Assembly (NCBI GenBank): GCA_021810805.1
Contig: JAJZHW010000001.1
Span: forward strand, 241,159-305,158
DNA length: 64,000 nucleotides
Direction of reading: 5' to 3'
Origin: Nitrospirota bacterium
GTDB lineage: Bacteria; Nitrospirota; Leptospirillia; Leptospirillales; Leptospirillaceae
The position numbers were made by a program, and so were the translations under genes. Of the stretch, positions 24,501-40,432 are shown piece by piece (positions within the stretch are counted from its first letter, which is position 1; each line of letters begins with the position of its first letter). The notes beneath the pieces are model-generated. The model searched no databases and had not been told where the DNA came from. It saw only the letters and a program-made list of their open reading frames with translations.

Positions 24501-24967
24501 TGGCGCCCTTTCAGCGGCTCTCCTTTGAGGCGGAATCCTGGCTCTTCGACTATACCCTCGACGGCCGGATGCTCCCCTTCGGGGAGCTGCACAACACCTT
24601 GGGGATGTTCGACCTTGTTCTCGACACCGATCCCTCTCTCGACTTTGTGGGCGGCTACGAGGACTGGACGATGGAGGCGGCGAGTCCGGCTATCGGGGCG
24701 CTGGTTCCCATCCTTGACCGCCAGCAGTTCCTGTTTGGGGCCCTGGTCTACCAGGCCCACATACAAAATCGGATGAACCTCAACCTGCAGGTGGGAGGGT
24801 ATGACGACATCTACTCCCACACCCCCTCGTACGAGGGGGGGATGGGGGTCTCCTATCGTGTCTCCCGCTCGCTCGAACTCTTTGCCAACGGAGACTATTT
24901 CAATCAATCGGTTCTTTACAGCGGGGCTTCCGTGGAAGCCGTCTGGGGGTTTTCCTTATGGTTCTGA
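21506..24967 (+). CDS. pelB: PelB-like outer membrane protein: N-terminal TM, TPR superhelix, C-terminal beta-barrel
   Basis: 1153 aa, TPR repeats throughout, C-terminal barrel ending in VWGFSLWF; first gene of a pel-type operon. Confidence 0.82.
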   Translation: MKIPFVWILLAGAAFFLVALLLVPGDSEYVRLAIDAGDYDYAQSLLDRRLKSPDPPVWALRDAAHVAALQGYPSRAVRYLENLLKKSPGEYNDRLELARLYLNLYEPRKAALQLHELLRTEKLPDRDMMRLARSYDILNLPGEALTILHRIANEHPKDMNYWKAILIYDTQTGNADDMARTLRTLSRNFPQRIDYLTMRLSLASRRGRDREVLRMMARLKVLGAGIDTSLLPAMRSLFRMKRPVDAYLLYRTSEPEVAKNSVIDSAAWFFYKSAYLPWSLSAFLDLLAREPTNRKVWDEAIWLSDKLHWYSATRSLMEKRQGVLPLPVELYHQRILDLDERYGLKGRAQADLLLWLGSPGGPDLDDMRLAWQTAEDVDNLPLATARLRQAMNIFPSNGQVRENLVRSYRDMGRYDDAGAFLWAQGLEGGDRSLLRRALAAFREADNVGAQKGILYYLVSSDSRERFRDDQYALFTLFDIGGQPTDVSQLLTALQRFPDLSASMGMELARIMVWGHHDKKAREAIDRIARAYPFNRAILFQASDWFNEADRLDLAIDYDKRLVSLLPSDPQGLALLIRDRIWAGQDKKVLAYYQRLLGLDPRNLPALAYLGDHAYYHGRFRRAIRLYRRAVRYGDTDYALVYRLGSAFRQVKNLRMARRMFRLSWELLSPKLSPPPHSARQRTLSQGLDPPAGQFRLVAQSLGGRPPPSPSGKKDDAYRRRLLYAIKIQHALGHDRVAYRRTLDFLRQFPDDREGLYWAARLLWKAKRGGKALAYLGRWLSRHPDSKDFLVFRAEILTATGRVGAAQRLLWRLHKKYPEDRVIWSDLVETYKKQGDLVSTQALDSHIFSQGETQAPRVTSGILNLYNMGDWSLRNQDFAIFYPGGAAYSFDTKVETPLWDSANYFAGRTEYLGGGSGTGIGTNGYTYAGVRWSPTPGWQVVAEGGDTQLAGTPGFYLRGTGSVGPVTLDLQGFDNMIWGDFGESIARDGLQSGYMATISVAPFQRLSFEAESWLFDYTLDGRMLPFGELHNTLGMFDLVLDTDPSLDFVGGYEDWTMEAASPAIGALVPILDRQQFLFGALVYQAHIQNRMNLNLQVGGYDDIYSHTPSYEGGMGVSYRVSRSLELFANGDYFNQSVLYSGASVEAVWGFSLWF

Positions 24968-25512
24968 TTGCGCGACCCATCGTCCGTTTCGGCGGACTTG
25001 CCTTGGTCCTTTTTCTTCTGGCCTCCTGTGCCTCGGGGGGGGGATCCTCGGGCAGCCTTCCTCCGGCTCCTCGTCCTTTGACTCTCTTTGTTCAGCCCTT
25101 TTCGAATCTGACGACCACCCCGGATGCCGGCAAGTCCGTGACAACTCTTCTCGTCTCCTCGCTCCTGCGCCATCCGGAGTTGCGTCTGGCCTCGGCGGAG
25201 TCCCTTCCCTTCCCGCTTCCCCGGAATGTCTCGGCCACCAACATGAGCCTGGCGATGCGGGACCGCCTTAAAGCGGCGGGGATCGATGCGATCCTCTCGG
25301 GCTCGGTGATCGAATACACCTACCGCTCCGAGCTTGAAAGCGAGCCGGTGGTGGGGATCAACTGGACCATGACCGACATCAGAAGTGGGCGGGTCCTCTG
25401 GTCCGCGGCGCTCTCCGGGGTGGGAAGCTGCTTTCTCGGATGCAGTCAGACACTCACCTCACTCTCGACCGATCTTATCGGCCATGAGGTCTCCCGCTTT
25501 GTCCGACAATAG
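24958..25512 (+). CDS. pelC: PelC-like outer membrane lipoprotein
   Basis: Lipobox FLLASC; LFVQPFSNLTTTPDAGKSVTTLLVSSLL; position after pelB. Confidence 0.78.
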   Translation: MVLIARPIVRFGGLALVLFLLASCASGGGSSGSLPPAPRPLTLFVQPFSNLTTTPDAGKSVTTLLVSSLLRHPELRLASAESLPFPLPRNVSATNMSLAMRDRLKAAGIDAILSGSVIEYTYRSELESEPVVGINWTMTDIRSGRVLWSAALSGVGSCFLGCSQTLTSLSTDLIGHEVSRFVRQ

Positions 25513-25514
25513 GA

Positions 25515-26423
25515 ATGTCCATGAAAGGGCGTGAGAGAGTTTTTGGGGGCCTTTTCTTTGGCCTTCTCTTCCTTCTCCCCTCCTGCCTTCCCTCCGCTCC
25601 CCCGACCCGGGAGCAGGGGGGCCTGCCCCCCCTGCGATTTGTCGTCTACTATGGGGATACCCCGATAAAGGGACTCATGAAGGGGCAGGACTGGGCGATC
25701 GTCTCCGATACCTATCCGATCCCCCGTGCCGGATCGGCTCTCCCCGACTCTCCCCGATACTTTGCCTACCTCTCGGTGGGGGAGGTCGACCGGGATGGCC
25801 CCATCGCCCGGGCCCTCTCCCGGACCCCGGGGGGGGAGAGGGGGGTCTTTCTCTCGGAGAACGCCTTCTGGCACTCCCATGTGGCCGACATCAGAAATCC
25901 GGCCTTCCGGAAGGCTCTCTATGATCGTGTCGAGCGGGATCGTCGCCTGGGATTTTCCGGTCTCTTTCTCGACACCCTCGACTCTCCCCTCGACTACGAG
26001 GAGCGCCACCCCAAAAAAGGGGCGGGGATCCGGCGGGCGCTGGTCTCCTTTGTGGAGACCCTTCACGCCACCTATCCCCGCCTCCTGATCGTGGGCAACA
26101 GGGGATTCTCCGCACTTTCCCAGCTGGCCCCGTCGCTTTCGGGGGTCCTCTTCGAGGATTTTTGCACCCGTTTTTCCGAGGGGCGAAAACGTTACGTCCG
26201 GGTTTCTCCCGAGGAGCGGGCCCGCCTTCTCGTTCTCATCCGCCAGGCTAAGGAGCAAAATCCCGATCTTCGCCTCCTGGCCCTCGATTACGACGATCCC
26301 GACTCTCCCGGAATCTCCCGAGGATGCGGGAGGGTTGCCCGGAGTGAAGGTTTTTCCCATTACGTCTCCGACTGGCAGCTTCTTCGCCCCGTGAAACGGC
26401 CGGAGCGGGAGAGTGGCCCATGA
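25515..26423 (+). CDS. Stand-alone PelA-type glycoside hydrolase domain (lipoprotein/exported)
   Basis: VVYYGDTPIKGLMKGQDWAIVSD...FAYLSVGEVDRD...GFSGLFLDTLDS: endo-alpha-1,4-polygalactosaminidase/PelA hydrolase-like TIM barrel; no deacetylase domain present. Confidence 0.8.
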   Translation: MSMKGRERVFGGLFFGLLFLLPSCLPSAPPTREQGGLPPLRFVVYYGDTPIKGLMKGQDWAIVSDTYPIPRAGSALPDSPRYFAYLSVGEVDRDGPIARALSRTPGGERGVFLSENAFWHSHVADIRNPAFRKALYDRVERDRRLGFSGLFLDTLDSPLDYEERHPKKGAGIRRALVSFVETLHATYPRLLIVGNRGFSALSQLAPSLSGVLFEDFCTRFSEGRKRYVRVSPEERARLLVLIRQAKEQNPDLRLLALDYDDPDSPGISRGCGRVARSEGFSHYVSDWQLLRPVKRPERESGP

Positions 26424-28825
26424 AGAGCTTCTTGCGACGGCTGCCGCTTTGGTGGAGGCGGACCCGCATGGCTCCCCACCTTGAGTCGTTGGGGGGGATT
26501 TTCCTGGTGGGGAGCTTCTTCGTCTACTTCTACGGGAAGTCCTCCCTGATCTTCCCCAGCTTCCACCCCTTTCTGCCCATCGTCCTTCTGGTGGCGGGCC
26601 GCTATGGCTTCGCTCCCGGGGTCCTTTCGGCCCTGGAGGCGACCGGCGGCTATTATCTGATGCTTCTGTGGCAGGACCACTTCGACACGATGGTGCCGGG
26701 GGAATTTTCCTTTCTCTGGCCGTCGGCCTTCCTTTTTTCCGGGATGGTCATGGGGGAGCTGCGGGATGCCGAGGGGAGGAAGTTTAAAGCTCTCCGGGAG
26801 AAATTTCTCCAGACCAAGGATGATGCCGATACGGTCAGCCTTCAGCTCGACATTCTGACCCGGGCCAAGAGGGAGCTCGAGCAGCGCATCTTCCTCGACC
26901 CCAACGCCGTCAGCGACATGTTCGACGTCTTCCGCTCCCTCGAACGCGATGAGATCGAGAGCATTCCCTCCTCGATCCTCTCCCTCTCCACCTCCTTTCT
27001 GGGGGCCGACTCGGCGGCTCTCTACCTCCGGCGGAAGCGGCAGTTTGTTCTGGAGGCCGAGGCCGGAATCCTTCCCTCTCCCCGGGAGATCCCCGGAGAT
27101 TATCGCCCCTTTTCCCAGGCCTACGACAAGGGAGAGACGCTGGCCCTCCCTTCCCACGGGATCCTTCCGGAGCTTCCGGCCTCCGATGAGGGGCCGGCCA
27201 TGAGTCCCCTGGGGGTCTATCCCATTCGCTCGGGGGAGGAAGAGGTCCAGTATCTTCTCGTCCTCTGGCATGCTCCCTTCGAAAAGCTGACCCCGGAATT
27301 TTTCCAGACCGCCTCCATGATCGCCGACCGCGCCTCCTCGCGGCTCATGAGCCTCAAGGTCCAGACCCAGACCCGGGAGAGCGTCTCCCAGGACGACTCG
27401 ACGGGATTCCTCCGGCCGGTCTTCTTCGCCCGGCGGGCGGCGGAGGAGCTCGGCAAGGCCTACCGCTACCTCGTCCCCCTCTCTTTGTTCGAAATCCGTT
27501 TCCAGGCCGCCGATGGCTTCTTTCTCGACCGCCATGCCGCCCTCCAGACGATGAGAAGCATTGCCAAGAAGCTTCTGCGGGAGGTCGACCTTGTGGGTGT
27601 TCCCCCCGACCATTCCCGGGTCTGGTTCTGCCTCCCTCATACGGGGGATGCGGGGGCCCGGATCGTTCTTCAGAAGCTGGGAGAGTATTGGAAGGGGGAA
27701 ACGTCACATTCCCAAATCCTCTCCAAGACGGAGCTCACCTTCCGGATGATCGTCTTCGAGCCAGGAGATCGGGCAAAAAACGCCAACATCTTTGCCGCCA
27801 TGATGAAGTATCTCGACGGTCTCTACGAGGTCGACCCCTCGAGCCAAGTGTACGGGGGGAGAGGGTTTGCAGAGCTTGTTCGCGTCACCCTTCCCGAAAA
27901 GGGATCGGTTCTGGGCCTCTTTCGCATGGCCTTTTCCGCCCCCTCCCTGGAAGAGGTGCTCCTTCTCCGAAAGGATCTGGGGTCGCGTAAAAATCACTCC
28001 GGCCGATTCTCCCTCCCCCGGGAGGCCCCGATCGGGGTTCCCCTGTCGGGGGCGTGTCTCTGGATCTTTCTCCCCCACGCCACGGAGGAGACCCTCGACG
28101 AGATCCAGACCGCGGCGCAGCAGTCTTGGTCCGAGAGCGACATCCCCAAGCTCAAGCGGGGAGGGGTGAGCTTTGACCGGCTTCTCCTAGGGAAGTCAGC
28201 CTCCCGCTCAAGCGATCTTTTAGTCAGCCTCGAGGAGATGGGGCAGGAGGAGGACGAGGCTCCCTTCCGACCCCTTGATGCCGTGCCCGCTTCAGGACGA
28301 CCGGGTGCGGCTCGGGATCGAGGGGGGACGCCCCCGATTCCGGGGGCCGAACCGATCAGCGAGGAGTCCCCCGGAAAGGGTTTCGAAGAACAGTCTGGGG
28401 CGGAGCCTCCATCGTCGCCCAGTGATCTTCCCCCGAGTCCACCCCTTTCACAGGAGGAGCCGTCTGCCGCCAGGAATTCCTTCTCGGCTCGACGATTCGC
28501 CCCCCCGGTACGGGTCGGGACTCCCTATGCGCAGGGGGAAGGGGAGGAGCAGGAAAGCTTCCCCCGGCCGCCAGCGCGCTTCCCCGAGGAGCTCCTGATG
28601 AAGGTGGAGAGCCTGATCCGGGACCATGGCGTCCAGGGGATGACCCGCCGGGAGATAGCCAAGAATTCCCGAGGGTTCGCCCGACTCGACCCTGAGGCTC
28701 AGGAGGGGCTTCTGGCCCATCTGGCCGCCGAGGGGCGGATTGTCCGGGAGCAGCAGGAGGGACGAGGCCGTCCCCGGATCAGCTATGTTCATGCGGAGAT
28801 GGTCGAGGCCCTCCATGAAGAGTAG
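26420..28825 (+). CDS. pelD: PelD-like c-di-GMP receptor with TM helices, GAF, degenerate GGDEF and a long C-terminal extension
   Basis: N-terminal TMs, GAF-like region, RxxD (LLREVDLVG) followed by a non-canonical GGDEF; about 800 aa. Confidence 0.78.
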   Translation: MKSFLRRLPLWWRRTRMAPHLESLGGIFLVGSFFVYFYGKSSLIFPSFHPFLPIVLLVAGRYGFAPGVLSALEATGGYYLMLLWQDHFDTMVPGEFSFLWPSAFLFSGMVMGELRDAEGRKFKALREKFLQTKDDADTVSLQLDILTRAKRELEQRIFLDPNAVSDMFDVFRSLERDEIESIPSSILSLSTSFLGADSAALYLRRKRQFVLEAEAGILPSPREIPGDYRPFSQAYDKGETLALPSHGILPELPASDEGPAMSPLGVYPIRSGEEEVQYLLVLWHAPFEKLTPEFFQTASMIADRASSRLMSLKVQTQTRESVSQDDSTGFLRPVFFARRAAEELGKAYRYLVPLSLFEIRFQAADGFFLDRHAALQTMRSIAKKLLREVDLVGVPPDHSRVWFCLPHTGDAGARIVLQKLGEYWKGETSHSQILSKTELTFRMIVFEPGDRAKNANIFAAMMKYLDGLYEVDPSSQVYGGRGFAELVRVTLPEKGSVLGLFRMAFSAPSLEEVLLLRKDLGSRKNHSGRFSLPREAPIGVPLSGACLWIFLPHATEETLDEIQTAAQQSWSESDIPKLKRGGVSFDRLLLGKSASRSSDLLVSLEEMGQEEDEAPFRPLDAVPASGRPGAARDRGGTPPIPGAEPISEESPGKGFEEQSGAEPPSSPSDLPPSPPLSQEEPSAARNSFSARRFAPPVRVGTPYAQGEGEEQESFPRPPARFPEELLMKVESLIRDHGVQGMTRREIAKNSRGFARLDPEAQEGLLAHLAAEGRIVREQQEGRGRPRISYVHAEMVEALHEE

Positions 28826-29891
28826 AGGCGACGTCAGAACACGCACTCCGGACAAAGGGAAAACACCCCCTCGGGTCTTTGTGTCCCCCCTTCTTCGCCG
28901 GGCGGGCCTCCTGGTTTTCATGGGGTTGGGAACCCTTCTTTCAGCCCTGGCATTGGAGGATCTGCTTCTGGGGCAGGCCTCGGGAAGGGAGGTTCTCCTT
29001 CTTGCCATGGGGGGAGCGGCGGCCTGGCTGCCGGGGATGGCCTTTCTCCCTTATATCTTGCGAGGGCCCTATGCCGCCGCCCCCCTGCTCCTCCCCCTGG
29101 CGGGATCCCCGCTCATGTTTCTGGCGGTCATTTTTTTCATGGTTTCCCGAAGGAAGGACTACCTGGCGGATGACCCGACGATTGAGATGATCTTTCATCC
29201 TCCCAAGGTGCAAGGGCGTCGCCAAAGGTTTACCCTAGAGGACATCCTGACCCACGACCGGAAGATCGTCTCGGCGGGCGACATCCTGCGGTGGGGCGAT
29301 GTCTCCCTGAAGCAGGCGCTGATCGATCGATTGGCCTCCCGACAGGTGACGCCACGAGCCATCCGGATCCTTCGTGGCGCCAGGAACGATCCCGAGGACG
29401 AAGTCCGCCTCTTCGCCACAACCATCCTCACCCGGATCGAGAAAAAATTTCAGGAGAGGACCACGGCCCTTATGGAAAATCCGGATGCGGTGGCGCCCCA
29501 TGCCGCCTTGGGGCGCTCCTATCTCGAGTACGCCGAGTCGGGGCTGGTGGGGGATCGGTTGGCCAAGAGCCTTTTTCATTCGGCGCTCGCGGCCTATGAG
29601 ACCTCCCTTGCCGCGGGGGAGGGGATTGACCGGGAGGAGCTTTTGCACGTGGCCCATGTGGCCGTGGCACAAAAAAACTTCGCTGTTTTCGAAAGGGCGC
29701 GGGAGCGGGTGGCCGCCGACAGTGACCCGCTCGACCTCAAGCGCCTGGAATGGGCCAGACTCTATGAATCCGGACGTCATCGCGAGCTGCGCGACGAGAT
29801 TCAGTCCTCCCGCTCCCTGTGGGAGGGGAAGGCGCTCCCGTCTTACCTGTCGGTCTGGATGGAGCCCGGCCCCTCCCGGGAGGCGTCGTGA
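28815..29891 (+). CDS. pelE: PelE-like membrane/TPR protein
   Basis: N-terminal TM helices then helical repeats; between pelD and pelF, overlapping both. Confidence 0.75.
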   Translation: MKSRGDVRTRTPDKGKTPPRVFVSPLLRRAGLLVFMGLGTLLSALALEDLLLGQASGREVLLLAMGGAAAWLPGMAFLPYILRGPYAAAPLLLPLAGSPLMFLAVIFFMVSRRKDYLADDPTIEMIFHPPKVQGRRQRFTLEDILTHDRKIVSAGDILRWGDVSLKQALIDRLASRQVTPRAIRILRGARNDPEDEVRLFATTILTRIEKKFQERTTALMENPDAVAPHAALGRSYLEYAESGLVGDRLAKSLFHSALAAYETSLAAGEGIDREELLHVAHVAVAQKNFAVFERARERVAADSDPLDLKRLEWARLYESGRHRELRDEIQSSRSLWEGKALPSYLSVWMEPGPSREAS

Positions 29892-31396
29892 GCCCCGAAG
29901 ACAAAGATATCCCCGATGTCTGCCTGATACTCGAGGGAACCTACCCCTTCGTGACTGGAGGGGTCTCTTCCTGGACCCACCAGCTCATCAACCACCTGCC
30001 CGACGTGCGCTTCCACCTCTACTGTCTGATCGCCGAGCGGGAGCCGGGACCTTGGAAGTTTCCCCGTCCGGACAACGTGACAGGGGTGACGACGCTCTCT
30101 TTGGGAGCCTCTTCGGAGTCGCTGGAAGGGGAGGGGAAGATGCTCTCTCCGGGAGAGGAGAAGGCCCTGATCGATCTTTTGCGCACCTTCCACCGATCTC
30201 TCCTGGGCGGCTCCCCCGAGGCCTTTCAGACGCTCTTCGAGAGCTTCCATAAGACGGGTTTTTCTCCCGAGCTCTTCCGGACCCTCTCGGCAGGTCGGCA
30301 GGCCTGGTCCCTGATCGGAGAGTTTTACCAGGCTCAGTTTGCCCATGAGGCCTTTATCGACTTCTTCTGGATGTGGCGGACGACCCATCTCCCCCTCTTT
30401 GCGCTTCTCTCCGCCCCCCTTCCCCGGGCCCGCCTCTACCATTCGCTGGCCTCGGGCTATGCCGGGATGCTGGGGGTCATGGGCAAGCTGGCCTATGATC
30501 GCCCCTTTGTCCTTACAGAACATGGCATTTATACCCGGGAGCGAAAGATCGAGATTGCCCTGGCACAGTGGATCGGCAAGAGTCAGGAGGACGAGGCCAC
30601 CGTGCGGCCCATCCGGGAGACGGTCAAGGGCTTCTGGATGCGGATTTTCGAGCAGCTGGGGCGGATCGTCTACCACTACTCCGATACCATCGTGACGCTT
30701 TTCGAGGGAAACCGGAGCATCCAGATCCGGGACGGGGCCGATCCGGAGAAGACGCAGGTGATCCCCAACGGGATCACCATCGGTGAGCGGCCAGTCCTCC
30801 CTCAAATCCCCAAGCCTTCCGGGGGTGAGCGGGTCGTGGGATTCATTGGCCGGGTGGTGCCCATCAAGGACGTCAAGACCTTCATCCAGGCCTGCCGTCT
30901 TGTGGCCGACCAGTACCCCGCCGTGCGCGTCCTGATCATGGGTCCCATGGACCAGGATCCGGAGTATGCCCGGGAGTGTCAGAGCCTCGTGGAGCTCTTG
31001 GGGCTGTCGGGTCAGGTGAGCTTTACCGGGTCGGTACGGGTGGAGGACTATCTTCCGTCGCTCGATCTCCTTGTCCTGACCTCGCTTTCCGAGGCCCAGC
31101 CCCTGGTCATCATGGAGGGAGCCGTCTACGAGGTTCCCACCGTCGCCACCCGGGTCGGAGCCTGCGACGAGCTCATCAACGGTCGGCTTCGGGAGGATCG
31201 CCTCCTGGGGCCGGGAGGAATCGTGACCTCGGTCGGCAATCCCGACGAGACGGCGCTGGCGATCCTTCGGCTCCTCCGGGACGAGGCTCTCCGTCGGCGC
31301 ATGGGTCGTGCTGCGCGGATCCGGATGGAGCGCTTCTACCGGGAGGAGGCGGTCTTCTCGGCCTATCGGGAGATCTACCGAAAGGGAGGGCGGTAG
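29888..31396 (+). CDS. pelF: PelF glycosyltransferase (GT4 type)
   Basis: DVCLILEGTYPFVTGGVSSWTHQLI, ALLSAPLPRARLYHSLASGYAG, VVGFIGRVVPIKDVKTFI. Confidence 0.93.
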   Translation: MSPEDKDIPDVCLILEGTYPFVTGGVSSWTHQLINHLPDVRFHLYCLIAEREPGPWKFPRPDNVTGVTTLSLGASSESLEGEGKMLSPGEEKALIDLLRTFHRSLLGGSPEAFQTLFESFHKTGFSPELFRTLSAGRQAWSLIGEFYQAQFAHEAFIDFFWMWRTTHLPLFALLSAPLPRARLYHSLASGYAGMLGVMGKLAYDRPFVLTEHGIYTRERKIEIALAQWIGKSQEDEATVRPIRETVKGFWMRIFEQLGRIVYHYSDTIVTLFEGNRSIQIRDGADPEKTQVIPNGITIGERPVLPQIPKPSGGERVVGFIGRVVPIKDVKTFIQACRLVADQYPAVRVLIMGPMDQDPEYARECQSLVELLGLSGQVSFTGSVRVEDYLPSLDLLVLTSLSEAQPLVIMEGAVYEVPTVATRVGACDELINGRLREDRLLGPGGIVTSVGNPDETALAILRLLRDEALRRRMGRAARIRMERFYREEAVFSAYREIYRKGGR

Positions 31397-34300
31397 TGGC
31401 CGGCATCGGATTTGTCCTCCGCAAGCTCGTCTCCCGGGAGGACCTCTCGTCGCTCGCGGGCGGCTTCATCCTGTCGGCGGTGGTTGCGGCCGGCCCCTGG
31501 CTTCTCACCACGGTGGGGCTCCTGATCGTCAGCTACTCGAGCCTCGGCTCCTTCACCCGGGTCCGGGACTATCTTCTCTTTCGCTCCCTGGTCACCTTTG
31601 CCTTTTTTGCCTCCCTGATGATGGTCTCCTTTCTGCAACTTCCCGCCACCCGATTCGTGGCCGACCGCTTCTTCGAGATGAAATTTTCCGACAACCGCTC
31701 CATCTATCTCACCTCCATGGGGCTCTCCCTACTTTTTGCGGTCCCGATGGCGCTGGCTCTCGTCTATCCTCTTCACTTAAGCCTGGCCGAGAGCCTGGGG
31801 TATTACGGGCTACTCATCGTGCTGATTCTTCTGTGGATCACAACCTCCCTTGTCTCGACCCTCCACGACTACGGCACGGTGGGGGCGGCCTTCTTGCTGG
31901 GAGTGGCGGCCTCGGTGGCGGGGACCCTCTTCGGCGCCCGCCACGGGGGCACCGCCGGGGCCCTCTTTGGCTATCTTCTGGGGGAGGGGGTGATCGTGGC
32001 GCTCCTGGGCGCCAGGATTTTTGTGGAGTTCCCCGGGGAGATCCGATGGAACCGGACCTTTGTCTCCTTTCTCAGGCGACGGGGGCGACTCATGGTCCTG
32101 GGGCTCGTCATGACCTTGGGGATCTGGGTCGACAAGATCCTTTTCTGGTACGGGCCCGGCTCGGAGCGGATCGTGGGCTACATCCACGTGAATCGCCTCT
32201 ACGACATCGCCATGTTCTTTTCTCTCCTGACGGTGATTCCCACGCTGGCGCTCTTTGTCTTCTACTTCGAGACGGGATTCTACGAGCGCTACCGGGGGGT
32301 CTTCGTTCTCCTCGAAGGCCGGCGTCCCCTGGCCGAGGTCCTCGAGGCCAAGGAGCGGATGGTGGCCTTCATCAAGCGGGGTCTGGGCTACATCCTCAAG
32401 ATCCAGGGGGCGGTGACATTCATCGTCGTGCTGAACGCCCACGGAATCCTCTCCCTGTTCCACGCCGACCTTCTGGCGCTGCCCATCTTCCGCATGGGGG
32501 CCCTGGGGGGATTGTGCCAGGTGATCCTCACCATGGAGTTCACTCTTCTACTGTACTTCAACCAGCAGAAGATGGTGAGCGCCCTGGCCTGGGTCCTGCT
32601 TCTGTCGAATGCCGGACTGACGGTGCTTCTCTGGAACGTCAGCCCCCGTCTTGAGGGGATGGGATACCTGTCCGCCTGCCTTTTCTCGGCGGTCTACGGG
32701 TATTATCTCGTGGACCGCGGGGTCTACGACTTCGAATTCACCGTCTTCATGAATCCTCCGGACTATACGACGGAAGACTCTCGCCCGGAGGGGAAGGAGG
32801 ATCTGGTGATCCCCGACACGCCTCCGGGCGGAGAAAGGGGAAAGACCGTCGTGGCGGGTCTTCTTGTTCTGGCCGTGCTGGCTGGGGCCGCGCCGGGTCT
32901 GGCTCACGCGGGGGAGAAAAAAGCCGGAAATTCGCCGTCCCACTGGGAGCGGATCCACCGCACATGCTACGTGCTCTACTACGGCCCCCGGAAAGAGACT
33001 GACGATGCCAACAACTTCCGGGCCTACTGGGAATTCCCGCTCAACTACCTGGGCTTCGATGCGGTCTATCGGAACATGGCCCGGGGATTCCCCGATCCGG
33101 CCTCTCTCTCCCGGTACCGGGCCGTCTTCCTGCAGATCGACCGGAACCCCCTCCCGGACTCTCTCGCCTTCTGGCGCTTCGTCTCGGGGCTTCTCGACAG
33201 GAAAATTCCCTTTGCCATCCTCGAGGACTTCCCCGAGAGGGAAAAGGGGGATCCGAACTTCGAGGCGGCGGGCCTTCTTCGGGATCAAGTTCTTCTCCGG
33301 ATGGGGCTCAAGCGGGAGGGGGTCTGGGACACCAACCCCTTCGACCTCGACTATGGCCACCGGGATCCCTCCATGGAAGGGTTCGAGTATCCCCTCCCCC
33401 TGACTCCGCTGGCGTTTCGGCCGGTGGTGAGCATCAACCCTACGAACCAGATATTTTTGGGCGTGAAGAGCAACGAGACGAGGAATGAGGGGCTGGAGAG
33501 CCCTTATGGGATGCTGGCCCCCTGGGGGGGGATGGTCTTTGACCCCTTCATGATCCGCTGGCCCTCCCTCGATGCCGACCACACCCTCTGGTTTGTCGAC
33601 CCCTTTCGATTTCTCGAGTCCGTTCTCCATAGCCGCCCCTTTCCACGGATGGACCTCACCACCCTTAACGGCAACCGCATCTTCTACAGCCAGGTGGACG
33701 GAGATGCCTTCGAGACCCTCTCCCACTACAAGAGGCGGCGCATGTCGGCGGAGGTCCTCTATCGGGAGATCTACCGACCCATCCCCTTGCCCTTCACCGT
33801 CTCGGTCATCACAAGCCAGATCGATCCCCGAGTGCAGGGGTCGCGATCCCGGGTCTTCTGGGCCCGGAAGATTTTTGCCCTCCCGAATGTCGAGGCGGGT
33901 TCCCACACCTTCAGCCATCCCTTCTACTGGGTGCCGACCAAAAAACAGAAGGACGAGGGGCCGATCCACATCGAGATCCCCCACTATCATCTGAACCTCG
34001 AGACGGAGATCCGGGGATCGATCGACTACATCAACAAACACCTTCTTCCCCCGGGCAAGACCGTCCGTCTTCTCCAGTGGAGCGGCGATACCCGTCCGGG
34101 CCCCGATGCCCTGAAAGAGCTTGTCGGAACCGGCGTCGACAATCTCAACGGCTCGGATACCCGCTTCGACGACAATGCCCCCTCTTACACCTTCGTCTTT
34201 CCCTACTTTCGTCGGGTGGGTCCCTTTCTCCAGTATTTCAACAGCGACGTGAACGACTATATCCTGACCAACGACTGGAACGGCCCCTATTACGGCTATC

Positions 34301-34968
34301 TGAACGTCACCAAGACCTTCCTTCGCACCGACCGCCCCCGGCGGGTCGACCCCATCGATGTTTATTTCCACTTTTATGCGGGTCAGCGGGAGTCGGCCTT
34401 GAATGCCCTTCGCCAGGTGCTGACCTGGGTGATGCGCCAACCCATTGCCCCGCTGTACTCCTCCCAGTTTGTCTCGGTGGAGAAGGGGTATATCGCGGCC
34501 CATATCGATCGCATGAAATCCGGGACAACACTCTTCCGGGTCTCGGAATACGGGGCGGACACCACGGTGCGCTTTGACCATGCTGAGGATCGCTACCCCG
34601 ATCTCTCCTGCTCGCGGGGGGTGATCGGATATCGCCATCGGGGTGGAAGCCTTTATCTCTATCTCCTGCCAGGAGGGAAAACGGCGCGACTGTGTCTGTC
34701 CACGACCCCTCCGGAGGGGCCCACTCTGGCCCGGGCAACAGGGTATGTCTCTTTGGTGGGCGCCCTCTCCCCCCGGAGCTTCTCTTTCATCTATAATGGA
34801 TGGGTTCCCTCCGATCGGGTCGTCTGGCGGGGGTTGCCCCCGTCGGCGGACTACTCGCTGGAGGGGGAGGGGATCGCGGAGCGGCGAACCCTTCGGACGG
34901 ATGCTCAGGGGCGTCTTGTCCTGACCCACCTCGAATCGGGACGTCGCTACCGGGTGACGGCGGAATAG
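31396..34968 (+). CDS. pelG: PelG (multi-TM) fused in frame to a PelA-type polysaccharide deacetylase domain
   Basis: N-terminal about 460 aa GIGFVLRKLV...multi-TM PelG-like; then TVVAGLLVLAVLAGAAPGLAHAG signal-like segment; then YVLYYGPRKETDDAN..., VDGDAF, SHTFSHPF; single continuous frame with no stop. Confidence 0.83.
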   Translation: MAGIGFVLRKLVSREDLSSLAGGFILSAVVAAGPWLLTTVGLLIVSYSSLGSFTRVRDYLLFRSLVTFAFFASLMMVSFLQLPATRFVADRFFEMKFSDNRSIYLTSMGLSLLFAVPMALALVYPLHLSLAESLGYYGLLIVLILLWITTSLVSTLHDYGTVGAAFLLGVAASVAGTLFGARHGGTAGALFGYLLGEGVIVALLGARIFVEFPGEIRWNRTFVSFLRRRGRLMVLGLVMTLGIWVDKILFWYGPGSERIVGYIHVNRLYDIAMFFSLLTVIPTLALFVFYFETGFYERYRGVFVLLEGRRPLAEVLEAKERMVAFIKRGLGYILKIQGAVTFIVVLNAHGILSLFHADLLALPIFRMGALGGLCQVILTMEFTLLLYFNQQKMVSALAWVLLLSNAGLTVLLWNVSPRLEGMGYLSACLFSAVYGYYLVDRGVYDFEFTVFMNPPDYTTEDSRPEGKEDLVIPDTPPGGERGKTVVAGLLVLAVLAGAAPGLAHAGEKKAGNSPSHWERIHRTCYVLYYGPRKETDDANNFRAYWEFPLNYLGFDAVYRNMARGFPDPASLSRYRAVFLQIDRNPLPDSLAFWRFVSGLLDRKIPFAILEDFPEREKGDPNFEAAGLLRDQVLLRMGLKREGVWDTNPFDLDYGHRDPSMEGFEYPLPLTPLAFRPVVSINPTNQIFLGVKSNETRNEGLESPYGMLAPWGGMVFDPFMIRWPSLDADHTLWFVDPFRFLESVLHSRPFPRMDLTTLNGNRIFYSQVDGDAFETLSHYKRRRMSAEVLYREIYRPIPLPFTVSVITSQIDPRVQGSRSRVFWARKIFALPNVEAGSHTFSHPFYWVPTKKQKDEGPIHIEIPHYHLNLETEIRGSIDYINKHLLPPGKTVRLLQWSGDTRPGPDALKELVGTGVDNLNGSDTRFDDNAPSYTFVFPYFRRVGPFLQYFNSDVNDYILTNDWNGPYYGYLNVTKTFLRTDRPRRVDPIDVYFHFYAGQRESALNALRQVLTWVMRQPIAPLYSSQFVSVEKGYIAAHIDRMKSGTTLFRVSEYGADTTVRFDHAEDRYPDLSCSRGVIGYRHRGGSLYLYLLPGGKTARLCLSTTPPEGPTLARATGYVSLVGALSPRSFSFIYNGWVPSDRVVWRGLPPSADYSLEGEGIAERRTLRTDAQGRLVLTHLESGRRYRVTAE

Positions 34969-35080
34969 CTCAAAGTTTTATGGTAAAATGAGAAATTGTG
35001 TCGGCGAAAGGAGACGGAGGGGCCGGACCCGGGGCCCATGGGGCCGGGAAAATCATGACTCTTTTTTGGAGGTGACCGCA

Positions 35081-35668
35081 ATGATGACAAAGTGCCAAGT
35101 GGGGGGTGCGGGGGCAAGAGCCCTGCTCGTTCTGGTCCTTCTCGGAACGGGCAGCGCCCTTTCGGCCTGCTCCCTTTTTGAGCCCTCTCCCCCCTTTACC
35201 AAGGCGGAGTTGGCGCGGACCGACCGGGAGATCCTCTTTCGGGATGTGGACCACCATCTGAGGTCGATGGAGGGGCAGCGGGTCGTTCTCGGGGGGAAGA
35301 TCATTTCGGTGAAGAGGGGGACTCCTCTCTCGCTCGTTTTTGTGCGGGAGTATCCGCTGGATCCGACCTTCCTTCCCGAAACGCACCAGCAGTCCCGGGG
35401 GGATTTCGCCATCGAGACCGACATGCCGCTTCCCGCCGACCGGTTCAAGCCGGACCATACGGTAGAGGTGATCGGGACGATCCGGGCGCCCATGCGCGTG
35501 GTCATGGGGCAAAACAGCACCAAAAGAATACCTGTGGTGCGGGCGATCCATCTCCATGCCGAGGCTCCGGCTCCTCCCCCCGATCCCTACATGATGGATC
35601 CCGGCATGATGGATCCGGGGATGATGGATCCCTACATGATGGGACCCATGATGCCCATGATGTGGTAG
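35081..35668 (+). CDS. Slp-family-like outer membrane lipoprotein with Met/Asp/Pro-rich tail
   Basis: Lipobox LSAC; OB-fold-like EGQRVVLGGKIISVKRG; tail YMMDPGMMDPGMMDPYMMGPMMPMMW. Confidence 0.72.
   Translation: MMTKCQVGGAGARALLVLVLLGTGSALSACSLFEPSPPFTKAELARTDREILFRDVDHHLRSMEGQRVVLGGKIISVKRGTPLSLVFVREYPLDPTFLPETHQQSRGDFAIETDMPLPADRFKPDHTVEVIGTIRAPMRVVMGQNSTKRIPVVRAIHLHAEAPAPPPDPYMMDPGMMDPGMMDPYMMGPMMPMMW
35591..35650 (+). repeat. Four imperfect 15-bp tandem units (ATGATGGATCCNGGN) coding the Met-rich tail
   Basis: Units begin at 35591, 35606, 35621, 35636. Confidence 0.85.
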
Positions 35669-35709
35669 GGGAGGATCGCTCGCCCTTGAAATCCGGGCAG
35701 GGTGATGGC

Positions 35710-36180
35710 ATGATTCCCTTCATGCCGACCGTCACTCCCTTCCGCGTCCGTTATTCGGAAACCGATGCCCAGAAACGGGCCCACCACTCCCACTATCCGG
35801 TTTGGTTCGAGATGGGGCGGGCCGAGTATTGCCGGGCCATGGGCTTCGACTACCGGGCGATGGAGGAGGGGGGCGTCTTCCTTGTGGTGGCGAAGCTCGA
35901 GTGCCGCTATACCGGGAGCCTCCGCTACGACGATCTTGCCGCCATCGAGACCCGGTTGGTCCGGGTGGGCCGCCGCATCCTGGAGTTTTCCTACCGGGTG
36001 ACGGAGACCTCGTCGGGGGCGGTGGCCGCGTTGGGCTCAACGATCCTGGTCCCCGTGGACGAGGAGGGCCGCGTCGTGTCGATTCCCGAGGCCGTCCTCT
36101 CGCTCCTCACTCCCTGTGCCGAGGAGGAGCCGACGCCGGTTCCCTCCTTGTCAGAGACCTCACTTCCCTCAGGCGGATAG
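35710..36180 (+). CDS. Acyl-CoA thioesterase, YbgC/4HBT hot-dog family
   Basis: FRVRYSETDAQKRAHHSHYPVWFEMGRAEYCRAMG; its stop codon lies inside the tRNA-Val gene. Confidence 0.87.
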   Translation: MIPFMPTVTPFRVRYSETDAQKRAHHSHYPVWFEMGRAEYCRAMGFDYRAMEEGGVFLVVAKLECRYTGSLRYDDLAAIETRLVRVGRRILEFSYRVTETSSGAVAALGSTILVPVDEEGRVVSIPEAVLSLLTPCAEEEPTPVPSLSETSLPSGG

Positions 36181-36246
36181 CTCAGTCGGTAGAGCGCAGC
36201 TCTTACACAGCTGTTGTCGCGGGTTCGATCCCCGCTCCGCCTACCA
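36171..36246 (+). tRNA. tRNA-Val (anticodon TAC)
   Basis: AGGCGGA/TCCGCCT acceptor, CAGCT-CTTACAC-AGCTG anticodon arm, GCGGGTTCGATCCCCGC T arm, encoded ACCA end. Confidence 0.95.
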
Positions 36247-36262
36247 TCCTATGATTTTTCAC
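36233..36262 (+). repeat. Left attachment repeat: CGCTCCGCCTACCATCCTATGATTTTTCAC
   Basis: Identical to 43399-43428; includes the 3' end of tRNA-Val. Confidence 0.93.
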
Positions 36263-36290
36263 CGGCCGACAGCATCCAATATAAAACGAG

Positions 36291-36316
36291 AAGCCCGCGT
36301 AAAACCGGGCTTTTTT
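36291..36316 (+). terminator. Intrinsic terminator downstream of tRNA-Val
   Basis: AAGCCCG-loop-CGGGCTT followed by a T run. Confidence 0.65.
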
Positions 36317-36369
36317 CATGTTTTCCTGTCTTCTTCCGTCCGATGGGGTCCATTGACAGCCTGGGGAAT

Positions 36370-36420
36370 TGGGGGTATTTTTGGGGGTGCGATACCCCCA
36401 ACGGGGAGGCGATACCCCCA
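36370..36420. promoter_or_regulatory. Left cluster of integrase arm-type-like sites
   Basis: TGGGGGTATT (36370) and two GATACCCCCA (36391, 36411); the same 10-mer occurs twice at the right end. Confidence 0.55.
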
Positions 36421-36470
36421 GAATGCCCCCGATGGGCTAAAAGACATTGCTCCTCAGAAGTGGAGGCAAC

Positions 36471-37676
36471 ATGCTGACCGATACATCGATCCGGAACGCA
36501 AAGCCCAAGGAAAAGCCCTACAAACTTGCCGACAGCGGGGGGCTCTATCTCTTGGTTACTCCCAATGGCTCCCGATTGTGGCGGCTCAAATATCGGGTTG
36601 GGGGTATCGAGAAACTTCTTTCTTTTGGTTCATACCCCCAGGTGAGCCTCAAGGAAGCGAGAGACAAGGCATTTGAGGCCAAGCAAGGGCTCTTTTCGGG
36701 GATCGACCCATCCCAGGCGAAAAAAGCACAGAAGGCCAGCGCGTCCGGGGCCGATAGCTTTGAGGCGGTAGCGCGTGAATGGTTCGGGAAGTTTTCGACC
36801 GGATGGGCTCCTGGTCATGCGGAGCGCGTCATTCGGCTCCTGGAGCGGGATGTCTTCCCGTGGATCGGTCTTCGTCCCGTCCGGGAGATCACGGCTCCGG
36901 AATTGTTGGCCGTTCTCCGCCGAATCGAAGCGCGGGGGGCAGTCGATACGGCGCACCGCGCAAGACAGACGGCGGGGGCTGTCTTTCGGTATGCCGTCGC
37001 CACAGGAAGGGCCGAGCGCGATCCGTCCGGCGATCTTCGAGGAGCGATCCCCCCGGCGCGAGGCGGCCACATGGCGGCCGTCACCGACTCTCAGAAGCTC
37101 GGGGGGCTTCTCCGGGCCATTGATGCCTACGAGGGCGGCCTGATTGTCCGGTGCGCCCTCCGATTGGCTCCGCTTGTCTTCGTCCGTCCAGGGGAGCTCA
37201 GGGCGATGGAGTGGGCAGAAGTCAGCGTCGAGCGGGGGGAGTGGGTCATCCCCGGCCAGAAGATGAAGATGAAGCGCGAACATATTGTCCCGCTCTCCAA
37301 GCAGGCGCTCGAAATTCTCGAAGAGATCCGGCCCTTCACCGGGGCGGGGCGTTACGTCTTCCCAACCCCTACGTCCTCGAACCGGCCTCTTAGCGACATG
37401 GCACTTCTCACCGCCCTTCGTCGAATGGGAATCACGAAAGAAGAAGCGACGGTTCATGGATTCCGGGCCACGGCCTCATCGCTTCTGAACGCTCAGGGCT
37501 GGCCGTCGGATGTAATCGAGCGACAACTGGCCCATGTAGAGAAAAACCAGGTGCGGGCGGCCTACAATCGGCACGATTATCTCCCGGAACGCCGAAAGAT
37601 GATGCAGTCATGGAGTGATTATTTGGGGGAATTGAAAAGCGGGGCGGAAATCCTACCGTTTCGGAAGGTTGAATAA
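36471..37676 (+). CDS. int: P4-type tyrosine recombinase/integrase
   Basis: LTDTSIRNAKPKEKPYKLADSGGLYLLVTPNGSRLWRLKYR; catalytic-type RPGELRAMEW, HGFRATASSLL, RQLAHVEKNQVRAAYNR. Confidence 0.96.
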   Translation: MLTDTSIRNAKPKEKPYKLADSGGLYLLVTPNGSRLWRLKYRVGGIEKLLSFGSYPQVSLKEARDKAFEAKQGLFSGIDPSQAKKAQKASASGADSFEAVAREWFGKFSTGWAPGHAERVIRLLERDVFPWIGLRPVREITAPELLAVLRRIEARGAVDTAHRARQTAGAVFRYAVATGRAERDPSGDLRGAIPPARGGHMAAVTDSQKLGGLLRAIDAYEGGLIVRCALRLAPLVFVRPGELRAMEWAEVSVERGEWVIPGQKMKMKREHIVPLSKQALEILEEIRPFTGAGRYVFPTPTSSNRPLSDMALLTALRRMGITKEEATVHGFRATASSLLNAQGWPSDVIERQLAHVEKNQVRAAYNRHDYLPERRKMMQSWSDYLGELKSGAEILPFRKVE

Positions 37677-37692
37677 TTTTTCCAAAGGGGGC

Positions 37693-37721
37693 TTGACAAG
37701 TCCGTTTTTATCCGGTAAGTT
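37693..37721 (+). promoter_or_regulatory. Candidate sigma70 promoter driving the alpA leader
   Basis: TTGACA (37693-37698), 17-nt spacer, TAAGTT (37716-37721). Confidence 0.5.
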
Positions 37722-37808
37722 CCAAATAACACTAAGCCTCGGTTGCAACGTCTCATGGGGGGGGAACCTCCGGGACGCGACGCCGGGAACCACGCCTTCT
37801 CGCATCAG

Positions 37809-37926
37809 CCCGGCTATCGGGAGTAGACCTCCAGGGCGCGATTAGCTGATTCGAGATTGTATCCCACCGGGAGCCGACCTCCAGGGGAAAAGTGCAGACA
37901 CCAACGCATTTTTCCTTTCCTGGAGG
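37809..37926 (+). promoter_or_regulatory. Repeat-bearing leader with two anti-SD-like copies and one complementary SD
   Basis: CGGGAGTAGACCTCCAGGG (37818-37836) and CGGGAGCCGACCTCCAGGG (37868-37886), exactly 50 nt apart; CCTCCAGG is the reverse complement of CCTGGAGG (37919-37926), the SD region of alpA. Confidence 0.6.
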
Positions 37927-37930
37927 CCGT

Positions 37931-38128
37931 ATGACAACGCACCAGATCCTTCGCCTACCGCAAGTCCTCGAAACTACTCGACTCTCTCGCTCAACAATCT
38001 ACAGTCTCATCCAAAAAGGCCAATTCCCTCGACCCGTCAAGCTCGGGGAGCGGGCGTCGGGTTGGCTGTTGTCCGAAATCTGCAGTTGGATTGAGTCGAG
38101 ACGAACCCTTTCTACCGTCAAGCAGTAG
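37931..38128 (+). CDS. AlpA-family (MerR-like HTH) regulator/excisionase
   Basis: QILRLPQVLETTRLSRSTIYSLIQKGQFPRPVKLGERASGWLLSEICSWIESR. Confidence 0.92.
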   Translation: MTTHQILRLPQVLETTRLSRSTIYSLIQKGQFPRPVKLGERASGWLLSEICSWIESRRTLSTVKQ

Positions 38129-38137
38129 GAGGGGGGG

Positions 38138-40432
38138 ATGTCGACAAAAAAGGGGCGCCCCCTGACGAGGAGAGGCGCCCAAAGCGAACCGATCAAGGAA
38201 GATCATAGCACCGATCCAAGTGATTTCCTAGACCCTCAAGTTTCACCCGACGGAAAACGGCCCCCAAGAGAACCTCTGACGCCGGAGGCCCTGGGCCGAA
38301 TCGCCAAGACGCTCCCCAAGGGGCTGACGCCTTCCCACAAGGAAACTCTTCTTAAGTCGGGCCTCTCTGAAAAGGTCATCGCGGAGTCGGGTTACTTCTC
38401 CGTTTCCGCCGATGATATCAAGAAATTCAACCTCTCCTCGTCCCACGGCCCCGCCCTCGGGATGCCCTACCGGAACCGGGGCGGCCAGGTGGTGCAGGTT
38501 GACCTCCGGTTCGACGCTCCCATCCCCGACCCCGAACGCCCCGGAAAAAAGATCCGTTATTTAAGCCCCCCAGGGCTCCCCAAGGTTTGCGATTGGCCCC
38601 AACGGGAGCCATCGGAGGGAGACGCGATCTTCCTTGTCGAAGGCAAGAAGAAGTCCGACGCGGCCCGATCCCTGGGGCTCTTCGCCATTGCCCTCCCTGG
38701 TATTTATGGCCTCGGGAAGCGGGCCAAGGAAGCCCGGCGCGACTTCGAGGCATTCCCTTGGGAGGATCGGGAGATCGTCGTTGTCTTCGATACCGAGACG
38801 AAACCGAAGACGAAGGCCGCAGTCGAGAAGTCCCGGACGTTCACTTGCGAATACCTGGCCTCCCTCGGGGCCGTTCCGAAGGTTGCCACTCTCCCGGAGC
38901 CAGAAGGGCCGGATGGAAAGATGGGTCTTGATGATTTCTTCGTTCAGGGAGGAACGAAGGAAGACCTTTTCTCCCTGATTGAAGACCCGGCCCCGGACTG
39001 GAAGACGCGCCTCGTTCTCACCGATACCGGAGGCGTTCGGGTCAACGTCTTCAACCTTTCCCTCGTCCTCGCCAATGATCCCGACTTCGACAAATTCAAG
39101 AGAACCCGCTTCAACGACCTGACGAAGCGCCTGGAGCTTCCAGACGGAACCCCCATCGACACACCAACCTTGACCGAGCTCGCCGGAGATATTGAGGGGG
39201 CCTACAAAACTTCCCTTGTCCAAATTGACACCATTCAACGGGTTCTGGAACTTATCGGCGTGCAACGCCGATTCCACCCGATCCGGGACTGGCTCGAAGC
39301 CCTCCCGCCTTGGGACCGAACCCCCCGGATTGCGGGGTTTTTCCCGACGTACTACGGAGCCAAGGATTCCGTCTTCGTCCGGGCCGTGGGAAAGAATTTC
39401 ATGATCGCCACCGTTGCCCGAATCTTCTCTCCCGGCTGTAAACATGACCATGTTGTGGTCCTCGAAGGTCCCCAGGGGATCGGCAAGAGCACCTCAATTC
39501 AAACCCTCTTCGGGACCGAGTGGGCCACGACCGCAAGGGCCGACATTTCCTCGAAGGACTTCATCAGTGGGATTCTTGGCTTTTGGGCCATCGAGCTCTC
39601 GGAGCTTTCCTCTCTCCGTCGCTCCCAGGTCGAGTCGATCAAGGCCGCCATCAGCGCCACAGAAGACGACGTTCGCCTTCCTTATCGCCGGGACACGAAG
39701 CGATATCCTCGCCAATGCGTTTTTATTGCGTCCACCAATGAGGATTCCTACCTCCAGGACCGGACGGGAAACCGTCGCTTCTGGCCCATCCGGTGTTCGA
39801 GCGTCGATCTCGACGGCCTCGCTCGGGACCGGGAGCAACTCTTTGCCGAAGCCCTCTTCAGGTTCCGGGGCGGAGAGACTTGGTGGGTGGTTCCCGTCGA
39901 AGAGGCTCGACAAGAGCAGGAATCCCGCGTCCAGGTGGACGCCTGGGAAGAGCTCATCAGACCTTGGCTCCTGAACAAGTGGGAGGTGACCCCGAACGAA
40001 ATTTTTGAATATCTAGAGATCGATCGCTCCCGACGAGGGCATAGCGAATCAATCCGCTTGGGGATGGTCATGAGGGGGCTTGGGTGGGTGAAAAAGCGCG
40101 TCAGAAAGTCTCACGGGCTGGAATGGATTTTTGTTCCGGTCTCCAACACCGGAACAACACCGGAACACACCGGAACATCCAATGTTGACGGGTTTGTTCC
40201 AAGTGTTCCGGTCGAAAACACTCAACATTTTAAGGAGGAAAAAAACATTATCAATACGTGCACACATGATTTTATGTATATGGGGAAAGAGAAGGGCATT
40301 CAGACCGGAACACCGGAACAACCTAGTACTGACGGGCTGTTCCGATGTGTTCCGGACCTGTTCCGGTCTCCAACACCGGAACACCCCCCGAAGCCCACAA
40401 TCACCCTCACCCCGGAGGACTTCGAGGAATGA
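38138..40432 (+). CDS. Primase-like (DUF3854/TOPRIM-type) plus VapE-like P-loop helicase replication protein
   Basis: AIFLVEGKKKSDAARSLGLFAIALPGIYG (TOPRIM-like), HDHVVVLEGPQGIGKSTSIQTLFG (Walker A), RQCVFIASTNEDSYLQDRTGNRRFWPI (VapE family). Confidence 0.87.
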   Translation: MSTKKGRPLTRRGAQSEPIKEDHSTDPSDFLDPQVSPDGKRPPREPLTPEALGRIAKTLPKGLTPSHKETLLKSGLSEKVIAESGYFSVSADDIKKFNLSSSHGPALGMPYRNRGGQVVQVDLRFDAPIPDPERPGKKIRYLSPPGLPKVCDWPQREPSEGDAIFLVEGKKKSDAARSLGLFAIALPGIYGLGKRAKEARRDFEAFPWEDREIVVVFDTETKPKTKAAVEKSRTFTCEYLASLGAVPKVATLPEPEGPDGKMGLDDFFVQGGTKEDLFSLIEDPAPDWKTRLVLTDTGGVRVNVFNLSLVLANDPDFDKFKRTRFNDLTKRLELPDGTPIDTPTLTELAGDIEGAYKTSLVQIDTIQRVLELIGVQRRFHPIRDWLEALPPWDRTPRIAGFFPTYYGAKDSVFVRAVGKNFMIATVARIFSPGCKHDHVVVLEGPQGIGKSTSIQTLFGTEWATTARADISSKDFISGILGFWAIELSELSSLRRSQVESIKAAISATEDDVRLPYRRDTKRYPRQCVFIASTNEDSYLQDRTGNRRFWPIRCSSVDLDGLARDREQLFAEALFRFRGGETWWVVPVEEARQEQESRVQVDAWEELIRPWLLNKWEVTPNEIFEYLEIDRSRRGHSESIRLGMVMRGLGWVKKRVRKSHGLEWIFVPVSNTGTTPEHTGTSNVDGFVPSVPVENTQHFKEEKNIINTCTHDFMYMGKEKGIQTGTPEQPSTDGLFRCVPDLFRSPTPEHPPKPTITLTPEDFEE
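40132..40383. repeat. Iteron-like array: 12 GGAACA/TGTTCC hexamers in two clusters flanking an AT-rich tract
   Basis: Six copies in 40132-40209 and six in 40307-40383; longer words TTCCGGTCTCCAACACCGGAACA and TGACGGG...TGTTCC...TGTTCCGG recur in both clusters. Confidence 0.7.

Follow-up and report, generated by a model that had tools for sequence, protein, structure and literature searches.

What does it mean for an exporter and a polysaccharide-modifying enzyme to share one reading frame? The window analysed here, a 64,000-nucleotide stretch from a Nitrospirota bacterium of the family Leptospirillaceae (GCA_021810805.1), raises this question: one of its genes runs from PelG, the membrane exporter of the biofilm polysaccharide Pel, straight into a PelA-type deacetylase. 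Is the junction real, how did it arise, and do the two halves stay together once they are made?

One frame encodes PelG and a PelA-type deacetylase

Translation of 31396–34968 yields 1190 residues with no internal stops, from a GTG start preceded by a strong Shine-Dalgarno match. The N-terminal part is PelG: the Pfam profile PF16933 matches residues 2–451 of 1190 over profile positions 2–452, scoring 375.8 bits (cut-off 29), and by hydropathy this part has 11 to 12 hydrophobic segments, the number varying with the sequence scored. One further hydrophobic segment of 19 residues (485–503) lies beyond PelG, in the stretch GKTVVAGLLVLAVLAGAAPGLAHA/GEKK (about 32839–32922), where A505 of AHA ends at 32910. 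From about residue 523 onward the protein matches the PelA crystal structure 9cgy, and the match is confined to the non-hydrolase part of PelA (chain residues 260–855). Consistent with these results, a sequence-only reading had described a single uninterrupted frame of about 1190 residues with an N-terminal PelG, a signal-like segment near 32840–32925 and a PelA-type deacetylase carrying VDGDAF and SHTFSHPF; both motifs align with those of PelA in 9cgy. The fused gene and its parts are as follows:

31396–34968, + strand: pelG-pelA(deacetylase) fused gene, 1190 aa, start GTG; fused frame also in five congeners
31399–32748, + strand: PelG domain, residues 2–451 (PF16933, E 4e-112; hydropathy)
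32749–32847, + strand: fast-evolving linker, residues 452–484, predicted cytoplasmic (dN/dS; frame kept in 6/6)
32794–32808, + strand: possible internal start AAGGAGG-ATCTG-GTG, in frame, codon 471 (Shine-Dalgarno pairing −11.7 kcal/mol)
32848–32910, + strand: signal-peptide-like hydrophobic segment ending P-G-L-A-H-A, residues 485–505 (hydropathy; motif in 6/6)
32911–34965, + strand: PelA-type polysaccharide deacetylase, residues 506–1190 (PDB 9cgy, E 5e-73)
33697–33705, + strand: predicted catalytic base D768 and metal ligand D770, VDGD motif (alignment; roles from PMC12022489)
33904–33918, + strand: predicted metal ligands H837 and H841, SHTFSH motif (alignment; roles from PMC12022489)
34369–34371, + strand: putative catalytic acid H992 (alignment; role from PMC12022489)

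The catalytic base, metal ligands and acid have been assigned in Pseudomonas aeruginosa PelA (PMC12022489), and the whole set is present in the fusion (D768, D770, H837, H841 and H992). Two accessory residues are altered, H526 of PelA being Q766 and E723 being D954. H526 precedes the base motif of PelA and is proposed to activate the base, in place of the arginine that has this role in CE4/CE18. The equivalent histidine is absent here (Q766, 33691–33699), and Q likewise occupies the position in every deacetylase examined, fused or free. Because this position is Q, we describe the C-terminal part as a homologue of the PelA deacetylase with predicted activity and do not file it firmly in CE21, whose activity is de-N-acetylation of alpha-1,4-GalNAc. 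AlphaFold2, run with only few sequences in the input alignment, returned pLDDT 37 and pTM 0.30 for the whole fusion, and pLDDT 43.5 and pTM 0.35 for residues 1–515; neither model is good enough to position the extra helix.

The fused gene is the last gene of a pel operon

Upstream of the fusion, the operon contains, in order:

21506–24967, + strand: pelB-like TPR protein (TPR families; same place in relatives)
24958–25512, + strand: pelC lipoprotein (PDB 5t11, E 1e-12; 9h80 PelC, E 1e-9)
25515–26423, + strand: pelA hydrolase half, GH114/GH166-like, with a lipobox-like N-terminus (PF03537; PDB 5tcb PelA hydrolase, E 1.6e-25)
26420–28825, + strand: pelD-like gene with an extra C-terminal winged-helix-like domain (position, conservation in relatives)
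28740–29891, + strand: pelE-like gene (position, conservation in relatives)
29819–31396, + strand: pelF glycosyltransferase (NF038011, E 6e-135, residues 33–520)

The labels PelB-, PelD- and PelE-like are based on domain type, position and conservation and carry no specific family match; in profile searches the PelE-like protein had no family match and the PelD-like protein none for its whole length. PelG is thus encoded with PelF adjoining and with the PelD- and PelE-like genes at the expected place. pelF and pelG overlap by one base, at which the pelF stop ends and pelG begins, and the true start of pelF may lie somewhat downstream of 29819. The locus has no two-domain PelA with GH166 hydrolase and deacetylase in one chain; PelA is split, with the hydrolase as a gene of its own and the deacetylase on PelG. 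A search of the source genome, which is 89% complete, with the fused protein gave a single match and no separate copy of PelG or of the deacetylase.

The operon and its surroundings show other particular features. The winged-helix-like domain of the PelD-like protein (residues about 720–800) follows a Pro/Ser-rich linker, is 51–85% identical in four relatives (L021, L022, L024 and L026) and was found only in the fusion genus; it is absent from the sister-genus loci tested and represents a second genus-specific domain gain in the pel operon. Directly downstream of the fused gene (34988–36180) are an Slp-type outer membrane lipoprotein with PGMMDPYMM-like repeats at its end and a 4HBT thioesterase, and the Slp gene also adjoins the fused gene in L021, L022, L024 and L005. 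Further on, a tRNA-Val, a tyrosine integrase (36447–37676) and a VapE-like protein (38138–40432) form an integrated element near the operon (36171–40432).

The fused frame is conserved in the genus

Could an extra or missing base, introduced by sequencing or assembly, have erased the stop between two normal genes? In the sister genus the two genes overlap as ATGA, and a single indel could join them. Relatives were sought in 41 genomes and in the genome collection, and the fused frame was found in five congeners (G001, G003, G005, G007 and G010) at 70–87% identity, with a junction devoid of stops. The in-frame fusion is present in all six congeners in which the junction is covered, source genome included; a further genome, G011/L026, whose sequence ends before the junction, was left out. 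The fused genomes are incomplete draft assemblies, and their records, judged from the titles, come from several projects and assemblers. An artefact would have had to produce the same frame in six genomes with differing linker sequences and lengths, and we consider it extremely improbable.

The linkers between PelG and the deacetylase have six different lengths in the six genomes (70–80 aa), so insertions and deletions have occurred, all of them keeping the frame. Across the junction region, the coding frame is free of stops in 6/6 and the +1 frame contains 2–5; the chance of six open linkers is about 1e-5 in an independent-sites estimate, a rough guide given that the genomes share ancestry. 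The linker has a dN/dS of about 0.2–0.8, compared with 0.07–0.2 in both flanking domains. Because it recurs in five further genomes, the fusion is more than chance, and the earlier claim of a real in-frame fusion, made with the proviso that an assembly error be excluded, stands. In L022 (9249–9438), the deacetylase C-terminus goes out of frame where the record has an ambiguous base; an assembly flaw is the probable cause.

The fusion probably arose once from adjoining genes

How widespread is the fusion? The sequence-only reading had suggested a survey of pelG neighbours across the phylum; among 399 Nitrospirota genomes examined here, PelG scored above the cut-off in 19, fused C-terminal parts were confined to one genus, and no fused PelG was found among the PelG-positive genomes outside it. 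Outside the phylum, a plasmid search retrieved 25 records with parts of the fusion, but no record reached 80% coverage of the query; with other phyla so sparsely sampled, fusions may occur there too.

In the sister genus (G019/L025), the ATGA overlap joins the pelG stop to the start of a deacetylase gene with a signal peptide, and in a single-contig genome (G015/L054) 49 bp lie between the two genes. Two genera of the family that are more distantly related encode the deacetylase at the other end of the operon, adjoining pelB, and their PelG ends 8 aa past its domain. The deacetylase gene has moved within the operon among L053, L050 and L054, being first, before pelB, in two genera and last, after pelG, in another. 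Close relatives with separate genes had been held to speak against a fusion. Such genes do exist in the sister genus, but since all tested congeners are fused, they point to the origin of the fusion and do not refute it. In a tree of PelG and deacetylase sequences, the fused proteins form one clade, split from the unfused ones with UFBoot 99; thus, the fusion probably arose once. The simplest history would be that a deacetylase gene adjoining pelG came to overlap it and was then joined to it in one in-frame fusion.

The deacetylase is predicted to be exported and may be released

What is the fate of the fused protein? With the 12 helices described for PelG (PMC13254593), PelG is expected to end on the cytoplasmic side, so that the extra segment would run outwards. 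Most probably, this segment derives from a signal peptide and takes the deacetylase to the periplasm. In all six fused proteins the hydrophobic run ends with P-x-x-[AS]-x-A, in otherwise poorly conserved surroundings; the motif looks like a site for signal peptidase I, with a predicted cut after 32910. The fusion combines a polytopic protein, an internal signal-like sequence and an exported-type domain in a single frame, the layout of the FbcH polyprotein of Bradyrhizobium, in which cytochrome b and cytochrome c1 are made in one frame and cleavage by signal peptidase was demonstrated. In FbcH, too, a polytopic membrane protein is followed by an internal signal sequence and then by a protein of the periplasm; its proteins are unrelated to the present ones, and cleavage is here only predicted.

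Alternatively, the segment could be a permanent tether, a thirteenth transmembrane helix packed on the C-terminal helices of PelG that would hold the deacetylase at the channel exit. Its 19 hydrophobic residues are enough to span the membrane uncut, and the fused frame is retained down to 70% identity. An uncut form could work, because PelADA of Bacillus cereus (CE26) is anchored by a transmembrane helix, which AF2/AF3 models place on PelG helices 9, 10 and 12 (PMC13254593, 2026), and this placement fits the order of parts in the fusion. Against a tether stand the helix-breaking proline six residues before a canonical cleavage position and the A/S-x-A at that position, both kept in 6/6; moreover, the segment diverges faster than the domains, which is unexpected for a specifically packed helix. 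Conservation of A-x-A could in part reflect common descent. We favour cleavage over a tether because P-x-x-[AS]-x-A is kept in all six proteins despite the divergence of the linker: the polyprotein is, in our judgement, probably cut by signal peptidase after export. A permanent tether is a less likely outcome, although one to be taken seriously, and the same holds for its functional corollary, a single polypeptide that exports the polysaccharide and deacetylates it at the channel mouth. The sequence-only reading had put the deacetylase at the exit of the export channel, with a signal peptidase cut at AHA/GE as its alternative; periplasmic placement is likely, and between tether and release the conserved motif leans towards release.

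The deacetylase could also be made mainly from the GTG at 32806 as an ordinary signal-peptide protein, beginning M-IPDTPPGGERGK and continuing into the hydrophobic segment, with read-through from pelG as a by-product. The Shine-Dalgarno pairing at codon 471 equals that at the pelG start, and comparable sites exist in L021 and L022, but L023, L024 and L005 have no equivalent, and about 9% of the start-like codons inside these genes have pairing of −9 kcal/mol or better. Internal initiation would also leave the unbroken frame unexplained, PelG still being made joined to the deacetylase. As the site is not conserved, we rejected this main route as improbable; since a strong site is present in only half of the relatives, an internal start would do no more than supplement the deacetylase in some members of the genus.

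Cleavage after export remains our preferred reading, and the following sequence of events, which we regard as reasonably probable as a whole, would best explain the locus. The stop between pelG and an adjoining deacetylase gene would have been lost in frame, once in the genus, so that each ribosome translating PelG would also translate the deacetylase. PelG would enter the membrane as an exporter of 12 helices whose C-terminus is cytoplasmic, and the former signal peptide would act as a thirteenth, internal export signal carrying the deacetylase to the periplasm beside the channel exit. Signal peptidase I would most likely cleave behind residue 505, the last of A-x-A; PelG would then keep a spare helix at its C-terminus, and the deacetylase would be free in the periplasm, at a 1:1 ratio to PelG. 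There it would deacetylate nascent Pel, and the separate lipoprotein hydrolase would provide PelA's other half.

Comparison with known systems

All parts of the P. aeruginosa pelABCDEFG operon have predicted counterparts here: PelB-, PelD- and PelE-like proteins, PelC, PelF, PelG and both PelA activities. In P. aeruginosa, however, PelA is a single protein with a hydrolase and a CE21 deacetylase, whereas here it is divided, the deacetylase forming the C-terminus of PelG. The pelDEADAFG operon of B. cereus resembles the present one in that its deacetylase lacks a hydrolase domain and lies outside the membrane behind one hydrophobic helix, its hydrolase has its own gene, and the deacetylase is predicted to contact the PelG C-terminal helices; it differs in having separate genes and an uncut anchor, compared with one gene, a cleavage motif and a Gram-negative-type operon with PelB and PelC here. 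Export-coupled deacetylation was proposed from that system, and the PelDEFG-PelA link in Gram-negatives was called unclear (PMC13254593). The Leptospirillum ferrooxidans-type pel operon (G015/L054; G019/L025) has the same order, with a 62–65% identical deacetylase directly after pelG, but as two genes, the deacetylase having its own signal peptide.

Fusions are known from the cellulose and PNAG operons, and the passages of PMC7112194 consulted name BcsZ-BcsC, BcsA-BcsB and glycosyltransferase-PgaB, as well as a rearranged pel operon in L. ferrooxidans. As here, parts of one synthesis and export machine are joined, including a synthase with a deacetylase; in none of the fusions named there is an exporter of the MOP superfamily linked to a modifying enzyme of the periplasm, as in the present one, and a PelG-PelA fusion does not appear in those passages. 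Nor did we find a report of one in the literature searched, which covered few subscription journals.

Implications

The fusion ties two steps of the Pel pathway, export and modification, in one protein; elsewhere they have separate genes. Its presence throughout the genus suggests that PelG and the deacetylase work jointly at the inner membrane and are required there in equal quantity. In the sequences compared, two proteins proposed to touch form one gene product, which supports the idea of export-coupled deacetylation (PMC13254593). For biochemistry and structure, the fusion offers a ready-made 1:1 construct. If it stays uncut, it would be a natural covalent PelG-PelADA complex, so far only modelled; if it is cut, a biofilm system would provide an unusual example in which an internal signal peptide serves to process a bacterial polyprotein.
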